This document shows, piece by piece, positions 2,136-21,613 of a DNA stretch of 21,613 nt. The notes beneath the pieces were generated by a model that searched no databases, had not been told where the DNA came from, and saw nothing but the letters and a program-made list of their open reading frames with translations. The stretch is from a virus: positions 1 through 21,613 of IMG/VR virus record IMGVR_UViG_3300032050_000927; one strand, 5' to 3'. A program made the position numbers and the translations under genes. Within the stretch, counting starts at the first letter, position 1, and each line of letters opens with the position of its first letter.

Positions 2136-3092
2136 ATGCCCCGTGCCATTGGCGCAAATGCGCGCCTGCTCATGATTCCTGAGGCCAGCTATGGCACCGC
2201 GCCAAGTGGTAATTGGCGGCGCATGCCCTTTCTGTCCTGCAACCTGGGCGCGGAGCAGCCACTGCTGGATGCGGATGTGATTGGCATTGGCGGCAATCGT
2301 GACACTGGCGCGCCGCTATTGGATACGGTGACGGTGGCGGGCCAAGCGGTGGTGCCGATTGATCTGATCAATTTCGGGCATTGGCTACGGTTGCTATTCG
2401 GCCCACCGACCACAAGCGGCACCAGCCCGAATTTCATCCATAGCTTTGCCTCGGGCCTGGCGGCGCTGCCCTCCAACAGTATCGAAATCGGCTATCCCGA
2501 TGTGCCGAATTACGATGTTTGCACGGGCGTGCGCGCTGATACGCTGGAGATGGATTTCACGCCCACCGGTGCTGCCAGCGCGACGATTGGGCTGCTGGGC
2601 CAGGGGTCACTACGCGGTGCGGCGAGTTCCGGCGGCACGCCAAGCGGCGCGGCTTTTACGGCCTTTAATAAGGCGCAGGGTTCCATCACGCGCGCTGGTG
2701 CGGCGCTGGCGCAGGTGACTGGCGCGCGGATCAGCTTTTCGAATGGCATGGAGACGGTGCGCACGATCCGCGCTGACCGGAAGGTAGAGGGTGTGGATCC
2801 GGGTATTGCGCGTTGCACCGGGCAAATCACGGTGCGGTTTGAGAATACGGTGCTGCTAGCGCAGGCGCAGGGCGGCACGCCAGCAGAATTCGCTATGGCG
2901 TTCACGATGGATACCAATCGCAGCCTGACGATCACGCTGCATGAGGTTTATCTGGCGCTGGCCAAGACGCCCATCGAAGGACCGGCGGGGGTGGAGGCGA
3001 GCTTTGATTTCAGGGCTGCGTTCAATGCAACGGCGGGGCGGATGATGACGGTGGCACTCAGGAACCAGCAGGTAGGGACGGAGTATGGGTGA
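2136..3092 (+). CDS. Phage major tail tube protein
   Basis: 318 aa with a good ribosome binding site (AGGAGAA, seven to eight bases before ATG 2136). The sequence is Gly/Ala/Thr-rich and strand-rich throughout, with MPRAIGANARLLMIPEASYG at the N-terminus, followed by PFLSCNLGAEQPLLDADVIG and GNRDTGAPLLDTVTVAGQAV. The body reads as a duplicated beta-sandwich. The conserved-type ISFSNGMETVRTIRADRKVEG segment (within residues ~200-220) matches the tail tube family Phage_tube_2 found in alphaproteobacterial siphoviruses. The protein forms hexameric rings that stack around the tape measure. At 318 aa it is longer than lambda gpV (~250 aa) but normal for this family. It is the last + strand gene before the antisense kinase insertion. 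Confidence 0.75.
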   Translation: MPRAIGANARLLMIPEASYGTAPSGNWRRMPFLSCNLGAEQPLLDADVIGIGGNRDTGAPLLDTVTVAGQAVVPIDLINFGHWLRLLFGPPTTSGTSPNFIHSFASGLAALPSNSIEIGYPDVPNYDVCTGVRADTLEMDFTPTGAASATIGLLGQGSLRGAASSGGTPSGAAFTAFNKAQGSITRAGAALAQVTGARISFSNGMETVRTIRADRKVEGVDPGIARCTGQITVRFENTVLLAQAQGGTPAEFAMAFTMDTNRSLTITLHEVYLALAKTPIEGPAGVEASFDFRAAFNATAGRMMTVALRNQQVGTEYG

Positions 3093-4800
3093 GGTCAAAA
3101 TTTCCACTACTGATCTTACGTGAAAGGAAAAGTGTCCTTAATCAAAGGGCTATCCTATTCCTATTTCAGTGGGCCTAACGCGCCAAATTGCCGACCGCAG
3201 CCTTACTCAGGAGATCCATCCAGCGCTGGCAGAAGGAGTTCATCTCGTCTTCGGTTAGGATATCACGAGGTACATGAGTAAGACTCCAAGTGTGCATCAC
3301 ATTATTAGACGCGGCCAAGTCGGCATCACGCCCTGAGGGCAGGTGGCGCGGTATCCCTGAAGGGTTTCTCGTCAAACTCTGATAAGCTACTTCGGTCCAG
3401 CGATATGATCCTCGGTCATTCTTAGCATACCAAAGTGAGGCGCTCCTTTCATAACTTGCGGTCTCGACCGATACGATGTCGCCGCAGACGACATCCCAAC
3501 CGCAATTCGCAAAGTCACTAAGTGGAATGTCAGGGTAATGGCCAGCTGTGATGGTTAATTTGGCGCTCCCAAACTCCACCTTGAACGATTTTTTGTGTCT
3601 CGTGCCGGCCTCTTGGATTTTTGCTTGCGGCGCATGCGCTTTGATTTCGCCTAATAGCCTACTGGCGATGGAGCACATCTCAGAAAACGCGTAGGCGGCT
3701 AGCTCTGTACGCTCATGTCGTCTCGCCTCTTCTTCGGCTAGAGCGGCCTCCGCACGAGCGGTGGCTTCCGCGATCCGCGCCGATGCCTCTCCGAGAGCCA
3801 CAGCGCCGGGTCCAGAACCGCCAGGCCGGGCTTGGATGGACGTAAGCTCCGACAGCACATCCTCAATATGAGGACGGGCGAGCGCCGGTTTCGCCACCAT
3901 CCGCAACAACAGGCTGCGGATCGGCGCCGAACCTGCCGTTATTAAAGGAGGGGCCCTTCGGTGCTGCTCCGCATAGTCGTCTACGTTTGGACCAGGATAC
4001 AGGGAGTGCCCACTGAGGATCTCGGCCCCGATGCACCCGAGAGCGTAAACATCAGTCGCGTGCGTGGCGCGCTGACCATTCCACTGCTCGGGCGCAGCGT
4101 AGGGTGGGCTCAGCGCATCTTTCAACGTCCGGAGTGATGTCTTGGCTTCTGTGGGCCGTGCGATACCAAAATCTGCAACATTCCATCTGTTGCCGTATCG
4201 TAGCACATTCTCCGGCTTCAAGTCGCGATGCACCCAATCGTCAACCTCGAGCAGACCACTCGCAATTTCGAGCAATGTTAGGACTGCCTCGGTCTCAGTT
4301 ATTGCTGCCCCTGCCTTAAGGTGGTCCCTGAGGCTCCTCTCGGCACGAGGCATCACGAGACAGGCTCGACCGGAAGCTACGTCATTTCCTAAATCAAGGA
4401 TGGGAATGACATGATGAGTATCTCGGCCGAGAAAAGCGCGCGCGAAATCGAGCTCTCGATGAGTAGCGTCACCGATGTCGCTTCTCAGAAGTTTAATTGC
4501 AACAGGTGTCCCATCCTCGGCAACGCCGGGGTGGACGGATCCAAAGCCTCCGGGGCGGCCGAGTAAGGTTTGCTCGTCCAGCAACCAAACTGACCGTTCC
4601 AGCTTCAACTGTCTCATGCAAACCAGCCCGTCTCTCAGGCGTCGATTTGAGCGCCCTCTTTGAGAGATTAGTATCAGATATGAAGCCAAAGAAACATACT
4701 GCCGCCTTCACTGGTGCCGCGATGAAGCTATGCGCTCGTGAGGCGCCGCTCTCAGCAATGCGATGGCCCCCGATGAACGACCTTGTTGGAGATTCCCCCC
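3093..4800. other. Cargo (moron) insertion between tail tube and tail chaperone
   Basis: The stretch between the tail tube stop and the tail chaperone start holds only one gene, the kinase, read against the late operon. It is visibly richer in A and T than the flanking phage genes. The left flank (3093-3174, 82 bp) contains a weak 5-bp hairpin, AAGGA/TCCTT around 3124-3139, without a T-run, so a terminator is doubtful. The right flank (4618-4800) holds the kinase leader on the minus strand, AT-rich around 4665-4690, and the chaperone's ribosome binding site GGAGA near 4789. I see no flanking direct repeats, transposase or att-like core. How + strand late transcription passes through or around the antisense gene is not evident. 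Confidence 0.6.
3175..4617 (-). CDS. Hanks-type serine/threonine protein kinase with C-terminal unknown domain
   Basis: 480 aa from ATG 4617; a TTG at 4689 would add 24 residues that do not resemble a kinase start, so the ATG is preferred. All kinase landmarks are intact (numbering from ATG): Gly-rich loop LGRPGGFGSV (19-28), VAIKLL lysine (42), catalytic HRDLKPEN (130-137), DFG (149-151), APE (175-177), helix F region DVYALGC (189-195), and the late conserved ARP (247-249). It should therefore be an active kinase. Residues ~276-306 are an Ala/Glu/Arg-rich helix, probably a coiled coil, linking to a ~170-residue C-terminal domain I do not recognise (KKSFKVEFGSAKLTITAGHY, then ADLAASNNVMHTWSL, ending FCQRWMDLLSKAA). 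No transmembrane segment is seen, so it is cytoplasmic. It lies antisense inside the tail operon, which points to independent expression as a lysogenic-conversion or defence-type gene. Substrate unknown. Confidence 0.9.
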   Translation of the reverse strand: MRQLKLERSVWLLDEQTLLGRPGGFGSVHPGVAEDGTPVAIKLLRSDIGDATHRELDFARAFLGRDTHHVIPILDLGNDVASGRACLVMPRAERSLRDHLKAGAAITETEAVLTLLEIASGLLEVDDWVHRDLKPENVLRYGNRWNVADFGIARPTEAKTSLRTLKDALSPPYAAPEQWNGQRATHATDVYALGCIGAEILSGHSLYPGPNVDDYAEQHRRAPPLITAGSAPIRSLLLRMVAKPALARPHIEDVLSELTSIQARPGGSGPGAVALGEASARIAEATARAEAALAEEEARRHERTELAAYAFSEMCSIASRLLGEIKAHAPQAKIQEAGTRHKKSFKVEFGSAKLTITAGHYPDIPLSDFANCGWDVVCGDIVSVETASYERSASLWYAKNDRGSYRWTEVAYQSLTRNPSGIPRHLPSGRDADLAASNNVMHTWSLTHVPRDILTEDEMNSFCQRWMDLLSKAAVGNLAR

Positions 4801-5178
4801 ATGCTCACCCTCAACCTCCCCACCACCCCCTACTGGCTCACCCTCCCGCGCGGTGTCCGCGTGGAAATCCGCCCCATCACAACCGCCGTGATGGCCGCCG
4901 CCCAGGCAGCCTCCGCCCGCCGCCTCAGCGCGCTCCGTGCGGCAGAGCCGGAGCTCGACCCCGACATGGCCCGCGGCCTAGCCTTCGCCTATCTGGTCAA
5001 GGCACTGGCCCGCCACGCCATCCTCGCCTGGGAAGGCATCGGCGACACCTCCGGTAAGCCCCTACCGCTCTCCCCCGATGCGGTCGAGCGCCTGATGGAT
5101 CTGGACGACATCGCCGCCGCCTTCTGGGATCGTGCCACCACCCCCGTCGCCGCCGTGGCCACTGAGGGAAACGGCTAA
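4801..5178 (+). CDS. Phage tail assembly chaperone (lambda G-like, zero-frame product)
   Basis: 125 aa from ATG 4801, preceded by GGAGA at 8-9 bases. A TTG at 4783 would add six residues but lies before the ribosome binding site, so it is rejected. The sequence begins MLTLNLPTTPYWLTLPRGVR, then EIRPITTAVMAAAQAA. It continues with mostly helical segments, LAFAYLVKALARHAILAWEG, SPDAVERLMDLDDIAAAFWD, ending VATEGNG. Its size, helical character and place immediately before the tape measure are those of tail assembly chaperones, which coat the tape measure before tube polymerisation. Like lambda G, it ends on a slippery heptamer that lets a fraction of ribosomes continue in the -1 frame. With frameshifting the product would be about 232 aa. 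Confidence 0.8.
   Translation: MLTLNLPTTPYWLTLPRGVRVEIRPITTAVMAAAQAASARRLSALRAAEPELDPDMARGLAFAYLVKALARHAILAWEGIGDTSGKPLPLSPDAVERLMDLDDIAAAFWDRATTPVAAVATEGNG
5166..5172 (+). promoter_or_regulatory. Slippery heptamer GGGAAAC for -1 frameshifting
   Basis: In the chaperone frame the bases read G GGA AAC, the X XXY YYZ pattern with X=G, Y=A, Z=C. Four bases later comes the zero-frame stop TAA (5176-5178). Slipping back one base gives GGG AAA and enters the frame that runs to 5498. Lambda uses the related GGGAAAG between G and T. Its position at the very end of the zero frame, in-register phase and downstream hairpin make this a strong call. Confidence 0.85.
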
Positions 5179-5498
5179 GGGCCCGCGCCGCATGGCATTT
5201 CGGCAGCGGGCCCGAATATTGTCGCGGCTGCGCGGCCATCGCGCGCGATTGCGGCGATAGCTGCCCCTACACGCAACACGCGCCGCTCAGCGTCGAAGCC
5301 CATGCCTGCTGGGCCGCCGGCACCGCCTGCGCTGAGGCCAGCATGGCCGGCATTACGCTCAACATCGCCAATGCGCTTGCCGCCGCGCGCGATCTCGGTG
5401 CGCAGGGCTGGGCCGCTTCGGAAATGCTGATGGCGATGCGTATCGGCATGGCCGAAGGCATCGCCACGCGCGGCAGGGAGGAAACGCCCCATGGCTGA
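5166..5498 (+). CDS. Tail assembly chaperone extension (lambda T-like), made by -1 frameshift
   Basis: This frame opens after TGA 5163-5165 and runs to TGA 5496-5498. No ATG, GTG or TTG occurs before the ATG at 5343, so expression by slipping at GGGAAAC is the best explanation. It would fuse 108 residues to Asn-124 of the chaperone. The extension contains YCRGCAAIARDCGDSC (Cx2Cx6Cx3C), further cysteines in HACWAAGTACAE, and helices ITLNIANALAAARDLGAQ and SEMLMAMRIGMAEGIATRG. The cysteine spacing suggests metal binding, which is an inference. The end overlaps the tape measure start (5491) by eight bases, as in many phages. In lambda the T part of GT recruits tail tube subunits to the tape-measure-chaperone complex, so a similar role is likely here. 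Confidence 0.75.
   Translation, partial: GKRLRARAAWHFGSGPEYCRGCAAIARDCGDSCPYTQHAPLSVEAHACWAAGTACAEASMAGITLNIANALAAARDLGAQGWAASEMLMAMRIGMAEGIATRGREETPHG
5179..5213 (+). promoter_or_regulatory. Frameshift-stimulating RNA hairpin
   Basis: GGGCCCGC (5179-5186) pairs perfectly with GCGGGCCC (5206-5213). The stem continues with GCCG (5187-5190) against CGGC (5201-5204) across one bulged A at 5205, leaving a 10-nt loop (5191-5200). This 12-bp GC-rich stem starts six bases after the slippery heptamer, within the usual spacing for -1 frameshift stimulators. There is no T-run after it, and it lies inside a downstream coding frame, so it is not a terminator. Confidence 0.8.
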
Positions 5499-7644
5499 CG
5501 CCACCCGCCGCGTCTCGGTGCGCCTGTCCTTGGACGACGCCGCGCGCGTAAAACAGGAACTGCGTGAGGTCGGTGAGACCGGCCAACGCTCCCTCGCGCG
5601 CATTCAGGGCGGCGCGGAACGTGCGTCCCACGCGCTGGATTTGCTGGATATCGCCGTGCGCGGCGTGCAGATAGCCGGCCTCGCCGCCGGGCTGCGCGCG
5701 GTGGTGGTCGCCGGCGATGCGCTGACGCAATCCATGGGGCGGCTGAATACCGCGCTCGGTTCGGTGGAACGCGCCGGGGAAATCTATGACAGGCTCTATC
5801 AGGATAGCCTGCAAACCGGCGTCGCCGTGCGTGAAAGCGTGGACGCCTTTGCGCGGTTTTCTATCGCCGCGCGGGAGATCGGTGCCACTTCGGATCAGGT
5901 CGCAACTCTGGTCGGCGGCTTGCAGCGCATCGCCATCGCCTCGGGCGCCTCGCAGCAGGAAATCTCCTCCGCCACCCAGCAGCTGGCCCAGGCCCTGGCA
6001 TCGGGGACGCTGCAAGGCGATGAACTGCGTTCCATCCTGGAAGGCCTGCCGACGCTCGCGCAGGCGCTGGCGCGCGAGCTTGGCGTTTCCATCGGTGAAC
6101 TCCGCAAGCTCGGGTCTGAGGGCAAGCTCACCGCCGATACGGTTTTCCCCGCGCTGCTGGGCGCCGTTGAAAAACTGAATGGCGAATTTGAACGTGCGCC
6201 GCTTTCGGTGGGGCGTGCCTTTGGGCAGCTCACCGTCGCGACGGATCAATTCCTCGCCCGGCTGGATCAGGCCATCGGTCTTTCCAATACGCTGGCCCAG
6301 GCGCTGTCCGGCGCGGCGCGCGTGCTGGATGGTGTGCGGCGCGGCTCCGGCCTTTTGCTACCCACCGAGCAGGAGGCCGCGCGCCGGGCGGAGGCTGCGG
6401 CACTGCGCGCGCAAATCGCGCGGCTTGAGGCTGAAATCGAAGGCCAAAGCCAGCCGGCCGAACCACGGCGCGGTACCATCCGCAGCGGCCTGGTCGGCAC
6501 CGCGCAGCAACAGGCTGGTGTGGACCGCGCCGCCCGGCTGGAGGAATTGCGCCGCCAGTATCAGGAACTCTCCGAGGAAATCACGCGCGGGGAACAGGCC
6601 GCCGGCGAACGCCAGCAGCGCGAGGCGGAAAGCGCCGCCGCCCAAGCGGCCGATGCACGCCGCCGCCGTGCCGGCGCGGATGCCGAGGAATTGCGCCGGA
6701 CCCTGGATGACCGCTTTCGCATCAATAGCGAATATGAGGACCGCGTCCGCCGCCTGCGTGAGGCTGAGGCCGCCGGTGGCATCACCGCCGCCGATCGCAG
6801 CCGGCTTGAAACCCTGGCGCTGCAAGAACGTGATGAGGCGCTACGCCGTATTGAGGGCACTACCCGCCGTGTGGCGGCCATCCCGCCCGCGGATCGTGCG
6901 GCGGAACGCGAATTGAATGATCTGCTGCGCGAACGCGAAAGGCTGATCCTGGATAATGAGAATGCCTATGAACGCTATCAGCGCCGCCTGGAACGGCTTG
7001 GAGATCTGGCTGAGCGTGCCGAGCGCGCAGGCCGGCCCATCCCCACCGAGACCATCGCCCGCGAAGGCGAACGCGCGCTGAGCGAATTGGAGGAGGCCGA
7101 GCAGCGCATCAAGCGCAGCACTGAAAACACCCGTGACGCCGCGCGGGAATTGGGGTTTGCGTTTTCCTCGGCCTTTGAGGACGCGATTGTGCGCGGTGCC
7201 AGGCTGTCTGAAGTGCTCAAGGGTCTGTTGCAGGACATGACGCGCATCATCGCCCGGCGCACCATTACGGAACCTTTGGGCAATGCGGCCTCGGCCGGGC
7301 TTTCCAGCATTGGCGCGGGGAATTGGCTGAATGATATCGGCACCGCCATTGGCGGATTGTTCCGCGCCGATGGCGGCCCGGTGTCGGCGGGGCAGCCCTA
7401 TATCGTTGGCGAACGCGGCCCGGAATGGTTTGTGCCAAACCAGGCCGGCACGGTGCTGCCCAATGGCAGCGCGCCAGCCGGCACCACGATCAATACCTCC
7501 ATCGCGATTGATGCGCGTGGCGCCGATGCGGGGGTGGAGGCAAGGCTGCGCATTTTGGCCGGGCAGATTGCGCGGCAGGCGTCGTCCATGACTCTGGATG
7601 CCATTCGCCGTGGCGGCAGCGCTTATGAAACAGTGCGGGGATAG
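5491..7644 (+). CDS. Phage tail tape measure protein
   Basis: 717 aa with a strong ribosome binding site (GGGAGGA, 5476-5482). Residues 1-50 are a charged helix. Residues ~55-255 form the conserved tape measure N-terminal domain, with ALASGTLQGDELRSILEGLP at about 168-187 and LRKLGSEGKLTADTVFPALL at about 204-223. Residues ~300-560 are a long Glu/Arg/Ala-rich region consistent with coiled coil. Near 580-610 comes a hydrophobic stretch (MTRIIARRTITEPLGNAASA), followed at ~628-648 by GGPVSAGQPYIVGERGPEWF, the typical C-terminal tape measure motif. The protein sets tail length and is threaded through the tube; 717 aa is moderate and predicts a fairly short siphovirus-type tail. It follows the chaperone frameshift pair, as is standard. 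Confidence 0.9.
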   Translation: MADATRRVSVRLSLDDAARVKQELREVGETGQRSLARIQGGAERASHALDLLDIAVRGVQIAGLAAGLRAVVVAGDALTQSMGRLNTALGSVERAGEIYDRLYQDSLQTGVAVRESVDAFARFSIAAREIGATSDQVATLVGGLQRIAIASGASQQEISSATQQLAQALASGTLQGDELRSILEGLPTLAQALARELGVSIGELRKLGSEGKLTADTVFPALLGAVEKLNGEFERAPLSVGRAFGQLTVATDQFLARLDQAIGLSNTLAQALSGAARVLDGVRRGSGLLLPTEQEAARRAEAAALRAQIARLEAEIEGQSQPAEPRRGTIRSGLVGTAQQQAGVDRAARLEELRRQYQELSEEITRGEQAAGERQQREAESAAAQAADARRRRAGADAEELRRTLDDRFRINSEYEDRVRRLREAEAAGGITAADRSRLETLALQERDEALRRIEGTTRRVAAIPPADRAAERELNDLLRERERLILDNENAYERYQRRLERLGDLAERAERAGRPIPTETIAREGERALSELEEAEQRIKRSTENTRDAARELGFAFSSAFEDAIVRGARLSEVLKGLLQDMTRIIARRTITEPLGNAASAGLSSIGAGNWLNDIGTAIGGLFRADGGPVSAGQPYIVGERGPEWFVPNQAGTVLPNGSAPAGTTINTSIAIDARGADAGVEARLRILAGQIARQASSMTLDAIRRGGSAYETVRG

Positions 7645-7649
7645 CAGCC

Positions 7650-8336
7650 ATGGTCGAATATGCCTGGCCCGAAATACTGCGCCCAACGCGGCTGACATTC
7701 TATTTGCAGCACAACACGACGCGCTTTGTCTCGCCCATCACGCGCCAGGCGCAGGTGCTGCGGCGTGAAGGTGCCCGCTGGGTGGCGCAGGCGAGCTTTG
7801 ATCCTTTGGACCGCGTGCGTGCGGGGATACTGGAAGGGTTGCTGGCTGCGCTGGGGGGCTCGCTCAATACGGTCAGGATCTATGATTGGCGGCGGGAATT
7901 CCGGAGCGGCGATCCGCGCAGCCAGGGCCAGGTGCCTAGCGGTCCATTCTCCTTTGATGATACGACGATCTTTACCGATGGCACGGGCTTTGTTGTGGGC
8001 TCGGGCAATCCTGCGCTGGCGGCTGGCGCGCCGCGCGGTGCGCTTTCGATCCAGACGCAGGGTTGGTATCCTAATGCCATCGCGATTGGTGCCGGCGATA
8101 TGATCGGCCTTGCCGGGCGGCTTTACATCGCGACCGAGGCGATCACGGCATCCGGTACTGGCACCGCGACCATTCCGATCGCGCCGCCCCTGCGTGAAGC
8201 GCTGCTGGTGAACCAACCGCTGGTACTGACCAAGCCCACCGTGCCGATGCGACTGGTCTCGGATGATGAGGCAGCCAATCCGACGCGGCCGGGGCGTTTC
8301 ACGGCCATCACCATTCGGCTTGAGGAGGCGTTGTAA
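7650..8336 (+). CDS. Phage minor tail protein (distal-tail position)
   Basis: 228 aa, starting five bases after the tape measure stop, with only a weak ribosome binding site. The N-terminal part reads YAWPEILRPTRLTFYLQHNT and ITRQAQVLRREGARWVAQAS, the kind of short strands found in distal tail and baseplate proteins. A variable middle follows (GPFSFDDTTIFTDGTGFVVG) and a barrel-like end with IGLAGRLYIATEAITASGTG and RLVSDDEAANPTRPG. I see no enzyme motif. The position after the tape measure corresponds to lambda gpM / distal tail protein genes. Related sequences in alphaproteobacterial prophages are usually left hypothetical. Structural role by position only. Confidence 0.55.
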   Translation: MVEYAWPEILRPTRLTFYLQHNTTRFVSPITRQAQVLRREGARWVAQASFDPLDRVRAGILEGLLAALGGSLNTVRIYDWRREFRSGDPRSQGQVPSGPFSFDDTTIFTDGTGFVVGSGNPALAAGAPRGALSIQTQGWYPNAIAIGAGDMIGLAGRLYIATEAITASGTGTATIPIAPPLREALLVNQPLVLTKPTVPMRLVSDDEAANPTRPGRFTAITIRLEEAL

Positions 8337-8911
8337 TGTCCGGCAGCAATCCATCGCCGCGCCTGACCCCCGCGGCCATTGCTGCGGCGGCATCGCCCAT
8401 CGCGGCGCCTGTCGTGCTGGTGGAGCTTGATTTCGCCTCGGGCTTTTTTCGCGCCTGGACAGGGATTGGGCCATTGCATTGGGCGGGCAAGGTGTTTGAG
8501 GGGCTGGGCGCCATTGGTGCCGTCAGCGAGATTGAGGAAACAGTGGAATTGCGCGCGGTGCGGTTGACGTTATCGCTCTCACCGGTGCCGCAAGATGTGG
8601 TGGATATCGCGCTGGCGGAGCGCAGCTTTCGCCTGCGCCCGGCGCGGCTTTGGGGCGTGCTGCTGGATGCCGAGGGCGCTTTTGTGGCGGATCCGTTCCC
8701 GCTTTGGGCGGGGCTGATGGATGTGATGGAAGTGACGGATGGGACCGAGGCGCGCATCGCGCTGACCTGCGAAAGCCGCCTGGTGGATCTCGAACGCGCC
8801 GAGGTGCGTCGCTACACCGATGCCGATCAGCAGGCGGAATATCAGGGCGACCGCTTTTTCGAATATGTGCCTGCCCTGCAGGAGGCGGAAATCCGGCTGC
8901 CGGCGCAGTGA
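8336..8911 (+). CDS. Phage minor tail protein (lambda gpL-position, baseplate hub type)
   Basis: 191 aa, with its ATG overlapping the previous TAA by one base (TAATG). Key stretches are VLVELDFASGFFRAWTGIG, WAGKVFEGLGAIGAVSEIEE, TVELRAVRLTLSLSPVPQ, then FPLWAGLMDVMEVTDGTEA and ESRLVDLERAEVRRYTDADQ. The pattern 'W-x-G-x-x-F-x-G-x-G ... E-x-x-E-x-R-A-x-x-x-x-L-S' and 'Y-T-x-x-D-Q-x-x-x-Y-x-G-D-x-x-F-x-x-V-x-x-L-Q-x-x-E' is recurrent in small tail proteins placed between tape measure and NlpC/P60 genes. These probably build the tail-tip ring that carries the fibre protein. No cysteine-rich metal motif as in lambda gpL is visible, so equivalence to gpL is positional. Confidence 0.6.
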   Translation: MSGSNPSPRLTPAAIAAAASPIAAPVVLVELDFASGFFRAWTGIGPLHWAGKVFEGLGAIGAVSEIEETVELRAVRLTLSLSPVPQDVVDIALAERSFRLRPARLWGVLLDAEGAFVADPFPLWAGLMDVMEVTDGTEARIALTCESRLVDLERAEVRRYTDADQQAEYQGDRFFEYVPALQEAEIRLPAQ

Positions 8912-13256: not shown

Positions 13257-14333
13257 TTATGCACCAGGCGCATCCCCCATGCTCACCATGCGCTTCACAT
13301 CCTCACCCATGAAACCAATCGCGGCCGGTGCGCGCCGGCCAGGAATGGCGGCGACATCATAAAGTTCCTGCACCACACCTTCAAAGCGGAGCCAATGCGG
13401 CGCATCGCCTGATCCCAGATCAATCACCATCACGCCGCAGCGCGGCTGCGCCCCGCGTGATGCCAAAGCCTCATCCAAAGCAAGCCCGCTGAAGGTGCGG
13501 TTTTCGCGCGGCATTGAAAGGCCAACCACGGCGTAATCGCCAAGGAAGGCCATGCCGCGCAAAAAGCCAGGGCAGAAGGCAATCGGTTCAAACTTCCCGC
13601 TTGCCACATCAACGCGGCCGAATTCCCCGCTGCCCGCATTCAGCAGATAAAGCGTACCCTTATGCAGCCGCGGCGAATGCGGCATGGAAAGCCCCTGCGC
13701 GACAACCTCACCAGACGCCACATCAATCACCTGCCCGCCAGATGCGCGATGTTCGCGCCAGCCATCCGCCACATCGGAAGCCCCCACCAGAGTCACGTAG
13801 CGCGGCGCGCCGGCCTCATCCATCGCAAGCCCGTTCAAATGGCAGCGATCTTCCGCCGCAAGCTTTGAGATGAAGCGCGGCCGCCAGAGTGGCGCAAAGC
13901 TGTGATCCTCATCCACGGTGGCGAGGCAGGAAAACAGCGTATTGACGAAAACCGGCCGCCCATCGGGCAAAAGCGCCAAATCATGCGCATCCAGATCGCC
14001 CGTCACCCAGCAGCGCCGCGGCGCGTAAAGCACATCATGCCCCTGATAGGCGGGCGGCGGAGGCGCGCCAGGTGTATCGGCCAGCAGATCGCGAAAGCGC
14101 CAGATTTGCGACAGCGTCGTGACATGCAGCGCATCCGCGCTGACATGAAGGCCCATGCAGCGCGGCAGGCTCCGTTCAAACACCGAAAGCCGGCCATCCG
14201 GGCGCGTGCCGAGCAACAAAAGCTTCCCCGCCTGATAGGTAGTGACCGCCATACTGCCACCCTGGTTTGCAAGCCAGGCACTGAAGTGGCGGGAGGTATG
14301 CACGGCGAAGCGGGGTTCGGCTATTTCGGACAT
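13257..14333 (-). CDS. TIGR03032/DUF4915-type protein
   Basis: 358 aa, starting at ATG 14333 with AGGAA eight bases upstream on the minus strand. The opening reads FAVHTSRHFSAWLANQGGSM, AVTTYQAGKLLLLGTRPDGR, and RSLPRCMGLHVSADALHVTT. Further on come LDAHDLALLPDGRPVFVNTL, FISKLAAEDRCHLNGLAMDE and YVTLVGASDVADGWREHRAS. Later come GQVIDVASGEVVAQGLSMPH, SPRLHKGTLYLLNAGSGEFG, and PGFLRGMAFLGDYAVVGLSM. These stretches match the strongly conserved blocks of the TIGR03032 family. The repeating strand pattern suggests a beta-propeller. No signal peptide or membrane segment is visible. The family's function is unknown. The gene is divergent from the giant FG-GAP/RTX gene across a 199-bp AT-rich region, so co-regulation is possible. 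Confidence 0.8.
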   Translation of the reverse strand: MSEIAEPRFAVHTSRHFSAWLANQGGSMAVTTYQAGKLLLLGTRPDGRLSVFERSLPRCMGLHVSADALHVTTLSQIWRFRDLLADTPGAPPPPAYQGHDVLYAPRRCWVTGDLDAHDLALLPDGRPVFVNTLFSCLATVDEDHSFAPLWRPRFISKLAAEDRCHLNGLAMDEAGAPRYVTLVGASDVADGWREHRASGGQVIDVASGEVVAQGLSMPHSPRLHKGTLYLLNAGSGEFGRVDVASGKFEPIAFCPGFLRGMAFLGDYAVVGLSMPRENRTFSGLALDEALASRGAQPRCGVMVIDLGSGDAPHWLRFEGVVQELYDVAAIPGRRAPAAIGFMGEDVKRMVSMGDAPGA

Positions 14334-14461: not shown

Positions 14462-14532
14462 ATTTCCCCCAATCGCACAAGATTACAACTTTCGTCGGAT
14501 CGTCTTCATTTTTGCAACCGGAGACACGCATC

Positions 14533-17500
14533 ATGCCGCCACCGCTTGATCTTGCCGATATCGCTGCCGGACAGGGGGGCTTTGTCATCTATGGTGAAGA
14601 TGCGTGGGATAATGCTGGTTTGTCCGTTGCCTCGGCGGGGGATGTGAATGGTGATGGTTTTGACGATCTGATCATTGCAACCCCCTTCGCCGCGGCGGCC
14701 GGCAACAGTAAGGTTGAAGCAGGCAGTACCTATATCGTATTCGGCAAGGCCGCTGGCTGGACCACTTCTATCGACCTGAACGATGTTGCTGCTGGCATTG
14801 GTGGCTTCGTCATCCATGGTGAGGACCCCCTCGACGCGTCCGGCATATCCGTAGCCTCGGTAGGAGACGTGAATGGCGACGGCTTTAGCGATCTGATCAT
14901 CGGTGCTGCCGCAGCCGATGCTGCCGGCAATGCTAAAGATCGCGCAGGGAGTAGCTATGTCGTGTTCGGCAAGGCGGCCGGCTGGGGTGCGGCCATTGAT
15001 CTAAGCAGCGTCGCTTCGGGATCCGGCGGGTTCGTTATCCATGGTCTGGACTCTATGGACGAGTTGGGCCGGTCTGTGGCTCATGCCGGTGATGTGAATG
15101 GCGATGGCTTCGATGATCTGATCATCGGGGCGCCAGACGGCGACGGGGCTGGCAACGCCAGGCCAGGTGCTGGCGATAGTTATGTGGTGTTTGGCAAGGC
15201 CTCTGGCTGGGGCGCTTCCATCGACCTTGCTGCCATCGCCATCGGTGACGGTGGCTTCGTGATATACGGTAAGGTCGGCGATGAGATTGGCAGAGCCGTG
15301 GCCTCAGCCGGGGATATCAACGGCGACGGCTTGGATGATCTGATCATCGGGGCGTGGTCAGCCGATGGGACGAGTACGAACGTCAATGACAATCGCGGCA
15401 ATAGCTATGTCGTGTTCGGCAAGACGAGTGGCTGGAATACTCCGGTTGATCTTTCAACCATCGCGGCGGGCACGGGTGGTTTCGTGATTTATGGTCAAGA
15501 CGCCCTTGACCGGTCGGGCTTCTCGGTGGCTTCTGCTGGCGATGTCAACGGTGATGGCTTCGGTGACCTGATCATAGCTGCGATTTTCGGCGATGGAGCG
15601 AATAATGACAAGCCAAACGTCGGCGACAGCTATGTGGTGTTTGGCAAGGCGTCTGGCTGGGGCGCAGCGAATGATCTTTCCGAAATCGCCTCCGGCAACG
15701 GCGGCTTCGTGCTCCATGGTCAAGATGCTGACGATTGGGCGGGCTTTGCGGTGGCTTCGGCCGGGGACGTGAATGGCGACGGCTTTGATGATCTGATCAT
15801 CGGGGCGCCCTATGCGGACGCTGCGGATAATTCGAAATTTCGAGCCGGCGAAATCTATGTGGTCTTCGGCAAGGCAAGTGGCTGGGGTGCGCCAATAGAT
15901 CTCGCAAACGTGGCTGCTGGGGCAGGCGGTTTCGTGATCCATGGCCAGGGTTCAGTCGATCGTTCGGGGCGCTCTGTAGCCTCCGCTAGGGATGTGGATG
16001 GAGATGGTTTTGATGATTTGATCATTGGGGCGAGGTATGGCGATGGAGCGAACAACGCCAAGCCAAACGCCGGCGAAAGCTACGTGGTGTTTGGCCGGGA
16101 CTTCACCGGCACGGTCACCCATGCCGGGACGGCGGTGGCTGATGCGCTGACCGGCACCGTCAGCGCAGACGTGATCGTCGCGGGTCAGGGCGATGATACC
16201 ATCCTTGGCCAGGGCGGCGCTGACGCGCTGCAGGGTGGCGCGGGCAATGACCGCATCGCCGTGGGTGACCTGAGTTTCCTGCGGGTGGATGGCGGCAGCG
16301 GCACCGATACGCTGGTGTTGACCGGCACTGGGCTCACGCTCGATCTGGCGGCCATCCCCGACACGAGGCTGCAAAGCATTGAGGCAATAGAGCTTGGCGG
16401 CAATGCGCTCCGCGTCACCGCGCTTGAGGTTTTGAACCTGTCGGACACCACGAATACGCTGCGCGTTACCGGCAGCGCGGGCGCCACGCTGAGCTTCGCC
16501 GATACCGGCTGGGTCCGGGGCACAACCGCAGAAGGCTTCACCACCTTCACCAAGGGTGCAGCGACGCTGGAGGTGCAGAGTACCATCCAAATCCCCGGCG
16601 GCGCCATCGCGCCCATAAACCTTGCCGATATCGCTGCCGGACAAGGGGGCTTTGTCATTTATGGGCGTGATACGGGCGATATGAGCGGCCGTTCAGTGGC
16701 CTCAGCAGGCGACATAAATGGTGATGGCTTCGACGATCTCCTCATCGGTGCGCCTTACGCATATGGCAACGACAATGCCAAGGGAGGTGCCGGTGAGAGC
16801 TATGTCGTGTTTGGCAAGGCCGCTGGCTGGGGTGGGCCTATCGAACTTGCCGCCATAGCCTCCGGTGTCGGAGGTTTTGTGCTTTATGGGCGTGACGGTT
16901 ACAGGCAATATAATGGGCGTGGCTATGCTGGGGATAATTCCGGCTTCTCGGTGGCCTCCGCCGGCGATATAAATGGCGATGGCTTCCATGATCTGCTCAT
17001 CGGGGCGTTCGGTGGCGATGCCGCAGGCAATCTGAAGGATCGAGCAGGTGATAGCTATGTAGTGTTCGGCAAGGCTTCTGGTTGGGGCGCTCCCGTCGAC
17101 CTCTCCACCATCGCTAGTGGAACGGGTGGTTTTGTAATCTATGGCGAGGATGTCTACGATTGGTCCGGCTTCTCGGTGGCCTCCGCCGGCGATATAAATG
17201 GCGATGGCTTTGACGATCTGATCATCGGAGCGCCTTTTGCCGGTGACGCGGATAACCTGAAGCGTCGCGCTGGGGATAGCTACGTGGTGTTTGGTAAGGC
17301 TTCTGGTTGGGGCGCGCCCATTGACCTTGGTACCATCGCTGCCGGTGATGGTGGCTTTGTGATTCATGGCCAGGATGGAGGTTCTTACTCTGGCTTCTCG
17401 GTTGCATCCGCTGGGGATTTGAACGGCGATGGCTTCGATGAGATCATCATCGGAACATCAGGAAGCGGTAAGAATTCTGGGCCTGACGCCTATGTGGTTT

Positions 17501-20500
17501 TCGGCAAGGCAAGTGGCTGGGGGGCGGCGATTGACCTGACTGATGTCGCCGCTGGCAATGGCGGTTTTGTCATCAACGGCGAGGGCTCCTACGATTTCTC
17601 TGGCCGATCTGTGGCCTCCGCCGGGGACGTGAATGGCGATGGCTTTGCCGACATGATCATTGGCGCGCCCCTTGGTAACGCAGCAAATAACCTGAAGGAG
17701 CGTGCCGGCAATAGCTATATTGTGTTTGGCAAGGGTTCCGACTGGGGTCCCGCACTTGACCTGACCACCATCGCTGCGGGCAATGGTGGTTTTGTGATTT
17801 ATGGACGGGATGTCTCAGATTGGAGCGGCTGGTCGGTGGCCTCCGCTGGGGATGTAAATGGCGATGGCATTGATGATCTGATCATCGGGACATTCGCTGC
17901 CGGCGAGAGTTATGTGGTGTTTGGCAAATCCAGCGGCTGGGGCGCTGCGATTGATTTGACTACGATTGCTGCCGGTGTCGGCGGCTTCATTGTCAATGGA
18001 AGGGATGTGATAGATTCATCCGGCTTGGCTGTAGCCTCGGCCGGCGATATCAATGGTGATGGCTTTGATGATCTGATCATCGGGGCACCTTTTGCTTTCG
18101 CAGCTGACAATGCAACCCGTTACGCCGGCGAAAGCTACGTGGTGTTTGGCCGTGACTTCACCGGCACGGTCACCCATGCCGGGACGGGGGCGGCTGATGC
18201 GCTGACCGGCACCGCCAGCGCAGACGTGATGGTCGCGGGTCAGGGCGATGACACTATCTTTGGCCAGGGCGGCGCTGACGCGCTGCAGGGTGGCGCGGGC
18301 AATGACCGCATCGCCGTGGGCGACCTTAGTTTCCTTCGCGTTGATGGCGGCAGCGGCACCGATACGCTGGTGCTAGCCGGCACTGGGCTGACGCTTGATC
18401 TGGCGGCCATCCCCGACACAAGGCTGCAAAGCATTGAGGCGATAGAGCTTGGCGGCAATGCGCTCCGCCTCACAGCGCTTGAGGTTTTGAACCTATCGGA
18501 TACCACCAATACGCTGCGCCTGACCGGCAGCGCGGGTGCCACGCTGAGCTTCGCCGATACCGGCTGGGTCCGGGGCGCAACTGCAGAAGGCTTCACTACC
18601 TTCACCAAGGGTGCAGCGACGCTGGAAGTGCAGAGCTCCATCCACATTCCTGGCGACGCCATCGCGCCCATAAACCTTGCCGATGTCGCTGCCGGACAAG
18701 GGGGCTTTGTCATTTATGGGCAGGATGACGGTGACCGATCCGGTCGTTCCGTGGCCTCGGCCGGGGATATCAATGGTGATGGCTTCGACGATCTGATCAT
18801 TGGGGCGTTCTTCGGCGACGCGGCGGGCAATGCGAAGTACAACGCTGGCGACAGCTATGTTGTGTTTGGCAAGGCGTCCGGCTGGGGTGCGCCGATTGAC
18901 CTTGCCACCATCGCTGCCGGCACGGGCGGCTTTGTCATCCATGGGCAGGATGGCAGTGATTATTCCGGCTATTCTGTGGCCTCGGCCGGGGATATCAATG
19001 GTGATGGCTTTGCTGATCTGATCATCGGGGCGTACGGCGGCCGCGCGGCGGGCAATGCGAAAGGCGCCGCCGGCGAAAGCTATGTGGTGTTTGGCAAGGC
19101 ATCCGGCTGGGGTGCGGCGATTGACCTGGCCACCATCGCAGCCGGCACGGGCGGCTTTGTCATCCATGGGCAGGATTTCCGGGACTATTCCGGCCGTTCC
19201 GTAGCCTCGGCTGGGGATATCAATGGTGATGGCTTCGCCGATCTGATCATCGGGGCGGCCGTCGGCGACGCGGCGGGCAATGCGAAATACAATGCTGGTG
19301 ACAGCTATGTGGTGTTTGGCAAGGCATCCGGCTGGGGTGCGGCGATTGACCTTGCCACCATCGCTGCCGGCACGGGTGGCTTTGTCATCCATGGGCAGGA
19401 TGGCCGTGACTATTCCGGCGTTTCTGTGGCCTCGGCCGGGGATATCAATGGTGATGGCTTCGCCGATCTGATCATCGGGGCCGACCGAGGCGACGCGGCG
19501 GGCAATGCGAAAAGCCGCGCCGGCGACAGCTATGTGGTGTTTGGCAAGGCATCCGGCTGGGGTGCGCCGATTGACCTTGCCACCATCGCTGCCGGCACGG
19601 GCGGCTTTGTCATCCATGGGCAGGATAACTATGACCGATCCGGCTTTTCTGTGGCCTCGGCCGGGGATATCAATGGTGATGGCTTCGACGATCTGATCAT
19701 CGGGGCGCTTGATGGCGACGCGGCGGGCAATGCGAAATACAATGCTGGCGACAGTTATGTGGTGTTTGGCAAGGCATCCGGCTGGGGCGCGCCGATTGAT
19801 CTTGCCACCATCGCTGCCGGCACGGGTGGCTTTGTCATCCATGGGCAGGATGCCTATGACCTATCCGGCTGGTCTGTGGCCTCGGCCGGGGATATCAATG
19901 GTGATGGCTTCGCCGATCTGATCATTGGGGCGCCCTTAGGCGACGCGGCGGGCAATGCGAAAGGCTATGCCGGCGACAGCTATGTGGTGTTTGGCAAGGC
20001 ATCCGGCTGGGGTGCGCCGATTGATCTTGCCACCATCGCTGCCGGCACGGGCGGCTTTGTGATCCATGGGCAGGATGCCAATGACAGATCCGGCGTTTCT
20101 GTGGCCTCGGCCGGGGATATCAATGGTGATGGCTTCGACGATCTGATCATTGGGGCGTGGACCGGCGACGCGGCGGGCAATGCGAAAAGCTATGCCGGCG
20201 AAAGCTATGTGATTTTCGGCCGCGACTTCACCAACGCCTTAACCCATGCCGGCACAGCCAGCGCTGAACTTCTGACCGGCACAAACGCCGCCAATGTCAT
20301 GGTGGCCGGGCTCGGCAATGACACGCTGGATGGCTTTGGCGGTGCCGATGCGCTGAAGGGCGGCGCCGGGGATGATCGGGTTCAGGTTGCGGATTTGGCC
20401 TTCCTGAATATTGATGGCGGCAGCGGCACCGATACGCTGGTGCTGACCGGCACCGGGCTCACGCTCGATCTGGCGGCCATCCCCGAAACAAGGCTGCAAA

Positions 20501-21613
20501 GCATTGAGGCGATAGAGCTTGGCGGCAATGCGCTCCGCATCACCGCGCTTGAGGTATTGAACCTGTCGGATAGCACAAATACGCTCCGCGTGACCGGCGA
20601 TGCGGGCGCCGCGCTGACCTTCACCGATACCGGGTGGGTTCGGGGTGCAAACTCAGATGGCTTTGTGACCTTCACCAACGGTCTTGCCACCTTGATTGCG
20701 TCCGAAAGCCTTGTGCCGAGCGCCCCAACGGCTGGAAACGATACGCTGGATGGTACTTCTGGCGATGACACTATTGATGCGCTTGGTGGCGCCGATTTAG
20801 TGCGTGGGCTCGCAGGCAATGACAGCTTGATGGGCGGTGACGGCACAGATACCCTGGATGGCGGCGTGGGCGCTGACAGTCTGCAGGGCGGTTCCGGTAA
20901 TGATCGGCTGGACGGTGGCAATGATGCCGATACGCTTTCTGGAGGTTCTGGCGCTGACCATCTGATTGGCGGCGAAGGTCTGGATTGGGCGACGTATGCA
21001 GAGCTGACCATAGCGACCCAGTCGATCACGGTGAACCTTGCCACAGGCGCTGTCACGGGTGCGGCGGGCAACGACCTGCTGTCTGGGATAGACAACGTGC
21101 ATGGCGGTGCGGGCAATGACAGCCTGTTCGGTGATGACTTTGCCAATCTGCTTGCCGGCGCCGCCGGCAATGACCGCTTGAATGGTGGCGGAGGCAATGA
21201 CACGCTAGATGGCGGAGCGGGTGCCGATACCATGTCTGGCGGCAATGGCGATGATGTCTTTATTGTTGGCGATGGTGATGTATTCTCGGAAGCAACTGGG
21301 CAGGGTACCGACCTAATCCTACTGCGGCGAAGTGCAATCAACCTGACCAGTATCGGTGTCGAGAATGTGACAGGCGATATGGTTGGTCTGGCCTTTTCCA
21401 TTATCGGCAACACTCTTGCGAATATCCTGACGGGCGGAGCCCTAGCTGATACGCTGAATGGTGGCTCCGCGAATGACACGCTGCTGGGCGGTGCGGGCGC
21501 TGACTGTCTGATCGGCGGTGCTGGGATTGATGTGATTGATGGTGGCGCTGGCGACGACCTGATCATGGTTTTGGGCGCTGAGGGCGAATACGACACGCTG
21601 CAGGGTGGTGCGG
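14533..21613 (+). CDS. Giant FG-GAP/RTX protein, probably type I secreted (3' end outside window)
   Basis: Starts at ATG 14533 with GGAGA at 14520-14524 and stays open to the window edge: at least 2360 codons without a stop (read line by line in frame). There is no N-terminal signal peptide, fitting type I secretion, whose signal would be at the missing C-terminus. Layout by residue: propeller A 5-522, linker 523-695, propeller B 696-1207, linker 1208-1380, propeller C 1381-1897, linker 1898-2067, RTX region 2068-2360+. Each propeller has seven FG-GAP repeats of about 75 aa, each with a calcium loop of the form DxNGDGxxD and a YVVFGKASGWG strand pair. Linkers and the C-terminal part contain GGxGxDxLxGG nonapeptides that bind calcium outside the cell. 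Likely roles are adhesion, surface layer or biofilm matrix; which one cannot be told from sequence. Only one cysteine was noticed in the RTX part. The secretion ABC transporter is not in the window. Confidence 0.85.
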   Translation, partial: MPPPLDLADIAAGQGGFVIYGEDAWDNAGLSVASAGDVNGDGFDDLIIATPFAAAAGNSKVEAGSTYIVFGKAAGWTTSIDLNDVAAGIGGFVIHGEDPLDASGISVASVGDVNGDGFSDLIIGAAAADAAGNAKDRAGSSYVVFGKAAGWGAAIDLSSVASGSGGFVIHGLDSMDELGRSVAHAGDVNGDGFDDLIIGAPDGDGAGNARPGAGDSYVVFGKASGWGASIDLAAIAIGDGGFVIYGKVGDEIGRAVASAGDINGDGLDDLIIGAWSADGTSTNVNDNRGNSYVVFGKTSGWNTPVDLSTIAAGTGGFVIYGQDALDRSGFSVASAGDVNGDGFGDLIIAAIFGDGANNDKPNVGDSYVVFGKASGWGAANDLSEIASGNGGFVLHGQDADDWAGFAVASAGDVNGDGFDDLIIGAPYADAADNSKFRAGEIYVVFGKASGWGAPIDLANVAAGAGGFVIHGQGSVDRSGRSVASARDVDGDGFDDLIIGARYGDGANNAKPNAGESYVVFGRDFTGTVTHAGTAVADALTGTVSADVIVAGQGDDTILGQGGADALQGGAGNDRIAVGDLSFLRVDGGSGTDTLVLTGTGLTLDLAAIPDTRLQSIEAIELGGNALRVTALEVLNLSDTTNTLRVTGSAGATLSFADTGWVRGTTAEGFTTFTKGAATLEVQSTIQIPGGAIAPINLADIAAGQGGFVIYGRDTGDMSGRSVASAGDINGDGFDDLLIGAPYAYGNDNAKGGAGESYVVFGKAAGWGGPIELAAIASGVGGFVLYGRDGYRQYNGRGYAGDNSGFSVASAGDINGDGFHDLLIGAFGGDAAGNLKDRAGDSYVVFGKASGWGAPVDLSTIASGTGGFVIYGEDVYDWSGFSVASAGDINGDGFDDLIIGAPFAGDADNLKRRAGDSYVVFGKASGWGAPIDLGTIAAGDGGFVIHGQDGGSYSGFSVASAGDLNGDGFDEIIIGTSGSGKNSGPDAYVVFGKASGWGAAIDLTDVAAGNGGFVINGEGSYDFSGRSVASAGDVNGDGFADMIIGAPLGNAANNLKERAGNSYIVFGKGSDWGPALDLTTIAAGNGGFVIYGRDVSDWSGWSVASAGDVNGDGIDDLIIGTFAAGESYVVFGKSSGWGAAIDLTTIAAGVGGFIVNGRDVIDSSGLAVASAGDINGDGFDDLIIGAPFAFAADNATRYAGESYVVFGRDFTGTVTHAGTGAADALTGTASADVMVAGQGDDTIFGQGGADALQGGAGNDRIAVGDLSFLRVDGGSGTDTLVLAGTGLTLDLAAIPDTRLQSIEAIELGGNALRLTALEVLNLSDTTNTLRLTGSAGATLSFADTGWVRGATAEGFTTFTKGAATLEVQSSIHIPGDAIAPINLADVAAGQGGFVIYGQDDGDRSGRSVASAGDINGDGFDDLIIGAFFGDAAGNAKYNAGDSYVVFGKASGWGAPIDLATIAAGTGGFVIHGQDGSDYSGYSVASAGDINGDGFADLIIGAYGGRAAGNAKGAAGESYVVFGKASGWGAAIDLATIAAGTGGFVIHGQDFRDYSGRSVASAGDINGDGFADLIIGAAVGDAAGNAKYNAGDSYVVFGKASGWGAAIDLATIAAGTGGFVIHGQDGRDYSGVSVASAGDINGDGFADLIIGADRGDAAGNAKSRAGDSYVVFGKASGWGAPIDLATIAAGTGGFVIHGQDNYDRSGFSVASAGDINGDGFDDLIIGALDGDAAGNAKYNAGDSYVVFGKASGWGAPIDLATIAAGTGGFVIHGQDAYDLSGWSVASAGDINGDGFADLIIGAPLGDAAGNAKGYAGDSYVVFGKASGWGAPIDLATIAAGTGGFVIHGQDANDRSGVSVASAGDINGDGFDDLIIGAWTGDAAGNAKSYAGESYVIFGRDFTNALTHAGTASAELLTGTNAANVMVAGLGNDTLDGFGGADALKGGAGDDRVQVADLAFLNIDGGSGTDTLVLTGTGLTLDLAAIPETRLQSIEAIELGGNALRITALEVLNLSDSTNTLRVTGDAGAALTFTDTGWVRGANSDGFVTFTNGLATLIASESLVPSAPTAGNDTLDGTSGDDTIDALGGADLVRGLAGNDSLMGGDGTDTLDGGVGADSLQGGSGNDRLDGGNDADTLSGGSGADHLIGGEGLDWATYAELTIATQSITVNLATGAVTGAAGNDLLSGIDNVHGGAGNDSLFGDDFANLLAGAAGNDRLNGGGGNDTLDGGAGADTMSGGNGDDVFIVGDGDVFSEATGQGTDLILLRRSAINLTSIGVENVTGDMVGLAFSIIGNTLANILTGGALADTLNGGSANDTLLGGAGADCLIGGAGIDVIDGGAGDDLIMVLGAEGEYDTLQGGA
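14545..16098 (+). repeat. FG-GAP propeller A, seven blades
   Basis: Calcium loops begin at 14641, 14866, 15091, 15313, 15541, 15766 and 15991, a spacing of 222-228 bases. Blades have diverged from each other in both DNA and protein. Blade 7 has DVDGDGFDD in place of DxNGDGxxD, still suitable for calcium. The block opens with LADIAAGQGGFVIYG, the same phrase that opens block B; block C opens with LADVAAGQGGFVIYG. Confidence 0.85.
16099..16617 (+). repeat. Linker module 1 (519 bp)
   Basis: Encodes DFTGTVTHAGTAVADALTGT, two RTX-like nonapeptide turns (GGADALQGGAGNDRI), then a strand-rich part with TGTGLTLDLAAIPDTRLQSI and EVLNLSDTTNTLRVTGSAGA. It has exactly the same length as linker 2 and differs from it at only scattered bases, which points to recent duplication or gene conversion. 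Confidence 0.8.
16618..18153 (+). repeat. FG-GAP propeller B, seven blades
   Basis: Calcium loops start at 16711, 16966, 17191, 17416, 17626, 17851 and 18046. The spacing is less regular (195-255 bases). Blade 2 has an extra Gly/Tyr-rich insertion (RDGYRQYNGRGYAGDNSG at about 16891-16944). Blades 4 and 6 have shortened loops. Blade 4 has DLNGDGFDE. The count is still exactly seven. Confidence 0.85.
18154..18672 (+). repeat. Linker module 2 (519 bp)
   Basis: Near-identical partner of linker 1, same length, with the same RTX turns and LEVLNLSDTTNTLR segment. It precedes the phrase INLADVAAGQGGFVIYG that opens propeller C. Confidence 0.8.
18673..20223 (+). repeat. FG-GAP propeller C, seven near-identical 225-bp blades
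   Basis: Calcium loops start at 18766, 18991, 19216, 19441, 19666, 19891 and 20116, exactly 225 bases apart. Most of each unit is the same at DNA level, including the loop phrase GATATCAATGGTGATGGCTT and GGCAAGGCATCCGGCTGGGG. Differences concentrate in a few codons: two after GQD, one before and one after SG, one after GDGF, two after IIGA, and two after GNAK. The homogeneity implies recent tandem expansion or conversion. Confidence 0.9.
20224..20730 (+). repeat. Linker module 3 (diverged copy)
   Basis: Same order of parts as linkers 1 and 2: DFTNALTHAGTASAELLTGT, nonapeptide turns, TGTGLTLDLAAIPETRLQSI, and EVLNLSDSTNTLRVTGDAGA. It is more diverged in its first 170 bases and its last 50. 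The segment around 20416-20580 remains almost the same as in the other two copies. Confidence 0.75.
20734..21613 (+). repeat. RTX calcium-binding nonapeptide region
   Basis: Repeated GGxGxDxLxGG-type units: GNDTLDGTSGDDT, GGVGADSLQGGSGNDRLDGG, then GGAGNDSLFGDDFANLLAGA, AGNDRLNGGGGNDTLDGGAG, and GGAGADCLIGGAGIDVIDGG. An interrupting part of about 35 residues (21000-21090) contains SITVNLATGAVTGAAGNDLL, a typical RTX insert. The array folds into a calcium-filled beta-roll after secretion. It continues past the window end. Confidence 0.85.

Follow-up and report, generated by a model that had tools for sequence, protein, structure and literature searches.

INTRODUCTION

Hotspots for defence genes have been described in prophages and satellites, namely P2, P4, K139-like and Bacillus prophages (Rousset et al. 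2022, PMC9122126). These sites are ∼1–5 kb long with a high turnover, have two conserved phage genes as borders, belong to temperate elements and hold many defence systems, both known and candidate ones; they adjoin cos or stand near repressor or integrase genes. In the prophage-carried KKP module, unchecked activity of a Hanks kinase leads to growth arrest and lytic phages are blocked (PMC11341870). Stk2 of Staphylococcus, a single-gene Hanks kinase, is reported to be protective against phages (Depardieu et al. 2016, as cited in PMC9519451 and PMC11341870). In phage 80alpha, opposed transcription in the noncontiguous tha/ith operon couples Tha defence to lysogeny (PMC11087260), and BstA prophages have a DNA element that spares the phage from its own defence (PMC8585504). 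The moron Tab is described in PMC10884400 as an 83-aa protein that is encoded between the terminase genes of Pseudomonas phage late operons and blocks tail assembly.

Here we analyse a 21.6-kb virus record, IMGVR_UViG_3300032050_000927 (21,613 nucleotides; this whole stretch is called the window), which carries a kinase gene within its tail operon. An earlier note, made from the letters alone, had read this gene as a moron expressed in the lysogen and had suggested superinfection exclusion or host modulation as candidate roles. The moron reading was strongly supported by comparison of the junction in related phages, some of which have nothing there and dozens of which carry cargo of other kinds. 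The larger finding is the site of the kinase: the junction between the tail tube and tail assembly chaperone genes is a prophage defence hotspot that is new, resembles those of P2 and P4 and has an unusual place, inside the tail operon. We found no report of a tube–chaperone hotspot in the literature searched, within the limits of that search. The kinase itself is probably a swappable defence gene.

RESULTS

An intact Hanks-type kinase gene lies antisense in the tail operon

The kinase gene runs on the minus strand from an ATG at 4617 to a stop codon at 3175–3177, with no internal stop codons (Table 1). Pfam Pkinase (PF00069) matches residues 18–255 with an E-value of 1.5e-24, above the cut-off, and all of the catalytic motifs are present: the glycine loop from residue 20, K42 (AIK), HRD (H130-R131-D132), N137, DFG (D149) and APE (175). 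The gene encodes a Hanks-type Ser/Thr kinase, intact and fully equipped at exactly the position given in the earlier note. A longer form starting from a TTG at 4689 was rejected; homologues begin at the same position as the ATG, which supports that start. The genes on either side, encoding the tail tube (Phage_tube_2) and the chaperone (phrog_313), are both on the plus strand, opposite to the kinase gene. The claim that the kinase DNA is AT-richer proved correct, with GC at 56.7% and GC3 at 57.5% against 62–71% and 71–86% for the tail genes. A scan at the kinase gene for promoters, by the sigma-70 consensus, and for terminators gave nothing above chance.

Table 1. Coordinates of the kinase gene, its parts and its surroundings in the window
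Feature	Coordinates	Strand	Basis or remark
Tail tube protein (Phage_tube_2), left anchor gene	2136–3092	+	Pfam E 2.2e-47
Exchangeable cargo segment of the hotspot	3095–4798		Homology limits against sister phages
Ser/Thr kinase gene, intact, 480 aa, ATG start	3175–4617	−	Sole cargo gene of the slot
Family-specific C-terminal alpha/beta domain, residues 330–480, motif RSxSLWY...W.E	3178–3630	−	Conserved in 12 full-length relatives; model pLDDT about 70
Predicted long helix/coiled-coil linker, residues 265–329	3631–3825	−	AlphaFold models; 19–27% identity to homologues
Hanks kinase domain, residues 1–262 (K42, D132, N137, D149)	3832–4617	−	Pfam; model superposition on PknB
Kinase upstream region, presumed own promoter	4618–4787	−	Presumed; none recognised by sigma-70 consensus scan
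GGAGA Shine-Dalgarno-like motif before chaperone start	4788–4792	+	Sequence and junction list
Tail assembly chaperone (phrog_313), right anchor gene	4801–5178	+	E 1.2e-14
Tape measure protein, context, after chaperone	5491–7644	+	Profile matches

The AlphaFold model of the full protein (pLDDT 72) shows a PknB-like kinase followed by a long helix at residues 270–328 and an alpha/beta C-terminal domain; the kinase part superposes on PknB 5u94 over 245 residues with a Z-score of 26.2. When the C-terminal part was modelled separately (pLDDT 70), only weak similarities to PDB entries were seen, the best being coproporphyrinogen oxidase (Z 8.2) and frataxin (Z 7.8), both inside the background range. 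Separate searches with the C-terminal ∼150 residues gave no match in Pfam, PDB sequences or viral structures (BFVD, E ≤ 0.001; model pLDDT about 70), in line with the earlier description of this domain as unrecognised. A match of this domain to a phage structural protein, which would have told against the moron reading, was thus not seen in BFVD or PDB sequences. A structural role for the kinase found no support in these same searches, read at a model pLDDT of about 70.

The tube–chaperone junction is a slot with exchangeable cargo

Viral contigs (IMG/VR) were collected by their similarity to the tail tube and tape measure proteins, and the gap was measured where both anchors were present. Junctions were de-duplicated by sequence; loci from L181 upwards partly repeat the contigs of L101–L180. 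This gave 86 distinct tube–chaperone junctions. Three of these were empty, with the stop codon of the tube gene overlapping the chaperone start (TGATG or TAATG, 2 bp). The others measured 642–4472 bp (median 1803), the variable segment extending from directly after the tube stop codon to just before the chaperone start. In the window, homology to the sister phages L105, L106 and L113 (91–93% at the nucleotide level) ends at 3093–3094 and resumes at 4799–4801. Among sisters in general the flanks are 91–94% identical in nucleotide sequence and the cargo has no homology. Only 8 of 138 loci (duplicates included) were within 60 bp of the tube–chaperone gap of the window. Other tail junctions were near-constant in length, with agreement in 142/142 loci for terminator–tube, 85/90 for tape measure to the next gene, and 127/132, 66/66 and 48/49 elsewhere (duplicates included).

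The kinase segment had no match in sister phages except in a twin contig, IMGVR_UViG_3300031787_013141, which differs from the window by one base over the 13.6 kb compared. Among these contigs the window itself was identified as IMGVR_UViG_3300031758_000669. A megablast search against phage records gave no match. The kinase is known at this slot from two contigs only, the window and its near-identical twin. Universal presence, which the earlier note had named as an outcome that would refute its reading, was thus not observed. It is cargo, in a slot which in collinear sisters is either empty or filled with unrelated genes.

In a distant relative on a Shinella plasmid the tube and chaperone genes abut, which suggests that the empty state is probably ancestral. 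Together with the three distinct overlapping junctions, this agrees with the remark that the two genes are usually adjacent. Cargo has a lower mean GC content than the flanks (60.5% versus 69.4%), and the difference had this direction at 77 of 83 sites. Most cargo-bearing sisters have a GGAG(A)-like motif before the chaperone, which the empty sites lack. Insertion by a transposon or integron-like element was rejected; there are no notable terminal repeats around the segment, and its edges are stop and start codons.

Length differences were also observed at other points of the operon. The gap between the window genes 643–951 and 961–1689 is bimodal, being ∼304 bp longer in about half of the relatives, and the 961/1689 junction has more than one length class, with a difference of about 0.13 kb. 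The gap between chaperone and tape measure contains 1.15 kb extra in 5 of 132 loci. A second, less used insertion point follows gene 8336–8911 (at 8911 in the window), where 6 of 53 loci have 0.6–1.7 kb extra.

The slot holds known and candidate defence systems

The main cargo ORFs formed 69 clusters, nearly all of them singletons; ORFs were taken as the longest non-overlapping ones, a choice that may have let in some false small ORFs where the cargo is GC-rich. PADLOC identified complete Lamassu systems in the slots of L226 (LmuA 3e-93, LmuB 8e-165) and L222 (LmuA 7e-28, LmuB 2.5e-108) and a complete IetAS system in that of L153 (IetA 7e-83, IetS 5e-33). As a control, PADLOC was run on ten structural genes of the window and gave no match at 1e-5. 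Single-protein cargo comprised SIR2 with STAND (nSTAND; L241 and L135), TIR with AAA and TPR (L137), caspase (L142, and L124 slightly under the cut-off) and an interferon-inducible-GTPase-like protein (IIGP; L139). In the same group were patatin (L230), PLD (L177), GmrSD (L162) and Schlafen-AlbA (SLFN_AlbA; L111), and also Mrr (L145), FRG (L173), a trypsin-like protein (L193), NERD (L150) and a DEAD helicase (L187). ParDE pairs and a RES-domain protein recur. Some cargo is not defence-like in look (a TauE exporter, MauE/glutaredoxin and an HWE histidine kinase), and many cargo ORFs have no assignment at all.

A second, unrelated Ser/Thr kinase of 544 aa lies antisense in the slot of L103 (3123–4757). 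The tail tube of L103 is 98% identical, and the C-terminal half of its kinase is without assignment, as in the window kinase. Large cargo ORFs without a Pfam family were seen at L168:6120–7643, L149:6172–7578, L190:1340–2590, L254:3181–4293, L106:2082–3020, L147:3877–4833 and L113:6012–7010, and these are candidates for new defence systems.

The slot thus resembles the P2/P4 hotspots (PMC9122126) in being a variable locus, with gaps of 0–4.5 kb between two conserved phage genes; in its turnover, with 69 main cargo clusters in 86 junctions; in containing known systems (two LmuAB, one IetAS and defence-type domains); and in its temperate carriers, as judged from a Resolvase-family recombinase in sisters. 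Unlike the P2/P4-type sites, it belongs to another phage family and lies inside a tail morphogenesis operon, between tube and chaperone; its cargo, most of it antisense, is exchanged precisely at the stop and start codons, which also sets it apart from the P2/P4 hotspots. As with Tab and other morons described in PMC10884400, an accessory defence gene is found inside a late operon, but the parts of that source on which we draw describe no hotspot of such diversity for Tab-type morons. With ∼70 unrelated cargoes in a short, precisely bounded slot, many without a recognised family, the site offers a ready list of candidate defence systems that can be read from short metagenome contigs, and is a good place to find new defence genes.

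Orientation of the cargo and lifestyle of the phages

Cargo was more often antisense to the tail operon than sense, for 48 of the 69 main cargo ORFs (binomial p 0.0016) and for 22 of the 30 with an identified domain (p 0.016), counts which are partly non-independent as two ParE cargoes are related. As ∼30% of cargo is in the sense orientation, opposed transcription cannot apply to every cargo. The two Lamassu variants (L222 and L226) and IetAS (L153) are sense-oriented.

In 20 sister records there was no tyrosine integrase; a serine recombinase of the Resolvase family, of the type used for integration, was present in 15. The recombinase suggests that the phage family is temperate, which would extend to the window, whose sequence does not include that end. 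The tail tube has relatives in Shinella, Methylobacterium and Paracoccus, which suggests an alphaproteobacterial host. The phages are probably a family of temperate siphophages, with Alphaproteobacteria the probable host.

Three related records share one number, 2883273131, which we take to denote an isolate: of 2883273131_000002, _000003 and _000004, two carry ParDE-type cargo and one a patatin-like phospholipase. Several sister records with different cargo under one isolate number suggest that recombination between co-resident prophages would allow exchange.

Relatives of the kinase are thinly spread

Full-length relatives of the kinase share 30–36% identity and have the same C-terminal domain. 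Plasmids of Streptomyces, Rhodococcus and Variovorax carry such genes; others were found in Pseudopropionibacterium, a Chloroflexi MAG and Actinomyces, there in chromosomes or contigs. By part, the window kinase is 33–45% identical to its relatives in the kinase domain and 22–29% in the C-terminal domain, and most of the catalytic motifs are invariant among the full-length relatives, the others nearly so. The family was present in 1 of 398 sampled genomes of Pseudomonadota and, apart from the search centre itself, in none of 396 genomes of Actinomycetota. The C-terminal domain was not found apart from the kinase in plasmids or in 388 Pseudomonadota genomes. Conservation of this domain with the kinase across phyla indicates that it is integral to the family rather than a phage-specific addition.

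The family, which consists of a Hanks kinase, a helical linker and a C-terminal domain without assignment, is therefore thinly spread across phyla and occurs on plasmids, in chromosomes and in this phage, as would be expected of mobile immunity. No conserved neighbour gene of the full-length relatives was found; PADLOC candidate-defence genes lie near two of them, PDC-S06 (2e-116) beside L012 and PDC-S28 (2e-293) beside L009. The family appears to be uncharacterised so far.

No assignment of the kinase to described kinase-based defence systems

The window kinase was compared with PADLOC models that contain Hanks kinases. The Stk2 model aligns only with residues 54–198, within the kinase domain, with an E-value of 1.4e-11; control kinases gave 1e-28 and 1e-32. 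The earlier note had cited Stk2-type abortive infection as a precedent, and as membership this analogy fails, because the model matches any Hanks kinase and scores the controls far higher. Like Stk2, the window kinase is a single-gene Hanks kinase, but its C-terminal region is different and Stk2 is host-encoded in staphylococci. The PD-T4-6 match (1.9e-33) is likewise confined to the kinase domain; the same models gave up to 5.6e-145 with a streptococcal kinase domain and from 1e-71 with four other kinases, and membership was rejected on these far better control scores. PADLOC calls of PD-T4-6 made by these models alone will therefore over-predict. For mad6 of MADS, a multi-gene system associated with methylation, the best model match was 1e-34, again in the kinase domain only and again well behind the control kinases, and the slot has no other MADS gene. 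PD-T4-6 and mad6 thus share a Hanks kinase domain with the window kinase and nothing beyond it.

The window kinase and the KKP module (PMC11341870) are alike in that both provide a prophage with an accessory Hanks kinase, and KKP is a precedent for kinase toxicity as defence. KKP consists of two kinases, one with an FHA and one with a CSD domain, plus a phosphatase; the window slot has a single kinase, with no second kinase, phosphatase, CSD or FHA domain, and the kinase was not assigned to KKP.

Possible functions of the kinase

Our preferred reading, held with moderate confidence, is that the kinase is accessory cargo of a high-turnover anti-phage hotspot, expressed in the lysogen as a single-gene defence of the abortive-infection type and silenced by late tail transcription. 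A defence role is likely by association with the other cargo of the slot. The defence role proposed earlier thus gains from the company at the site (Lamassu, IetAS, SIR2–STAND and TIR, among others), and gains nothing from the kinase itself.

On the preferred reading, the kinase would be expressed in the lysogen, where the tail genes are silent, from its own promoter in 4618–4787. A long helix, which may dimerise the kinase, links it to the C-terminal domain; this domain would keep the kinase switched off until infection by another phage is signalled. The active kinase would then phosphorylate host or phage proteins and bring about growth arrest, for which KKP and Stk2 are precedents. On induction, late transcription through the slot would oppose the kinase gene, lowering its expression and sparing the phage its own defence; sense-oriented cargo (30%) would have to be handled by other means. 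As in tha/ith (PMC11087260), a defence-type gene of a prophage is set against opposed transcription. The arrangement differs, however: in tha/ith it is the inhibitor gene that runs antisense to the gene for defence, and in the window the defence-like cargo opposes the tail operon, with silencing only proposed. Relatives that infect or reside in the same cell probably swap cargo through homologous recombination in their conserved flanks, without a dedicated mobile element.

An alternative, which we regard as unlikely, is that the kinase tunes lysogeny or host physiology by phosphorylating a host regulator, which would keep this or co-resident prophages silent or alter growth of the lysogen. KKP kinases do this besides defence (PMC11341870), part of the slot cargo is metabolic or signalling rather than defensive, and several related phages under one isolate number (2883273131_000002 to 000004) make cross-talk between prophages plausible. 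Yet there is no second kinase or phosphatase beside the gene, and lysogeny control is unlikely to depend on a gene that only 1 of the 86 distinct junctions holds. The recurrence of ParDE, RES and similar toxin–antitoxin cargo would fit a toxin-like kinase that helps to maintain the prophage, has an antitoxin that escaped detection and plays no specific part against phages. As the 1.7-kb slot has no partner ORF and the relatives have no conserved neighbour, we consider such addiction or fitness cargo improbable.

Phage-borne kinases with lytic roles exist, for example the T7 kinase. That the window kinase acts in the phage's own infection, against host defences or in host takeover, would suit its place inside a late operon, but is very improbable: the gene runs against late transcription, defence-type genes abound at the site and homologues occur on plasmids and chromosomes. 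We give least credence to a neutral gene, brought in by illegitimate recombination and under no selection at the slot. High turnover and the near absence of repeated cargo are what such passing freight would produce, but the cargo consists of one to a few intact genes, catalytic residues have been retained, and defence systems of two genes recur in complete form.

Beyond our preferred reading of the kinase as lysogen-expressed defence, a bolder and rather doubtful interpretation is that the slot is a site for inducible-silencing cassettes, in which antisense defence genes are off during the phage's own late transcription; the kinase would then be an uncharacterised defence family with its own sensor/effector domain, and many cargoes would be new systems. 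If this were true, antisense placement would allow a prophage to carry nearly any defence system, and the phage family a large arsenal that changes fast. The antisense bias within the tail operon suggests a simple and testable way for a prophage to escape harm from its own defence genes.

Other genes in the window

Two further genes lie downstream in the window. An antisense DUF4915 protein (PF16261, E 6.5e-128) is encoded at 13257–14333 on the minus strand, after the tail fibre gene; no relative was found in the PDB. A giant, open-ended ORF of at least 2367 aa occupies 14512–21613 on the plus strand from a TTG start, and has FG-GAP/integrin-like and RTX-type calcium-binding repeats. It may be a host adhesin-like gene past the end of the prophage, or further cargo.
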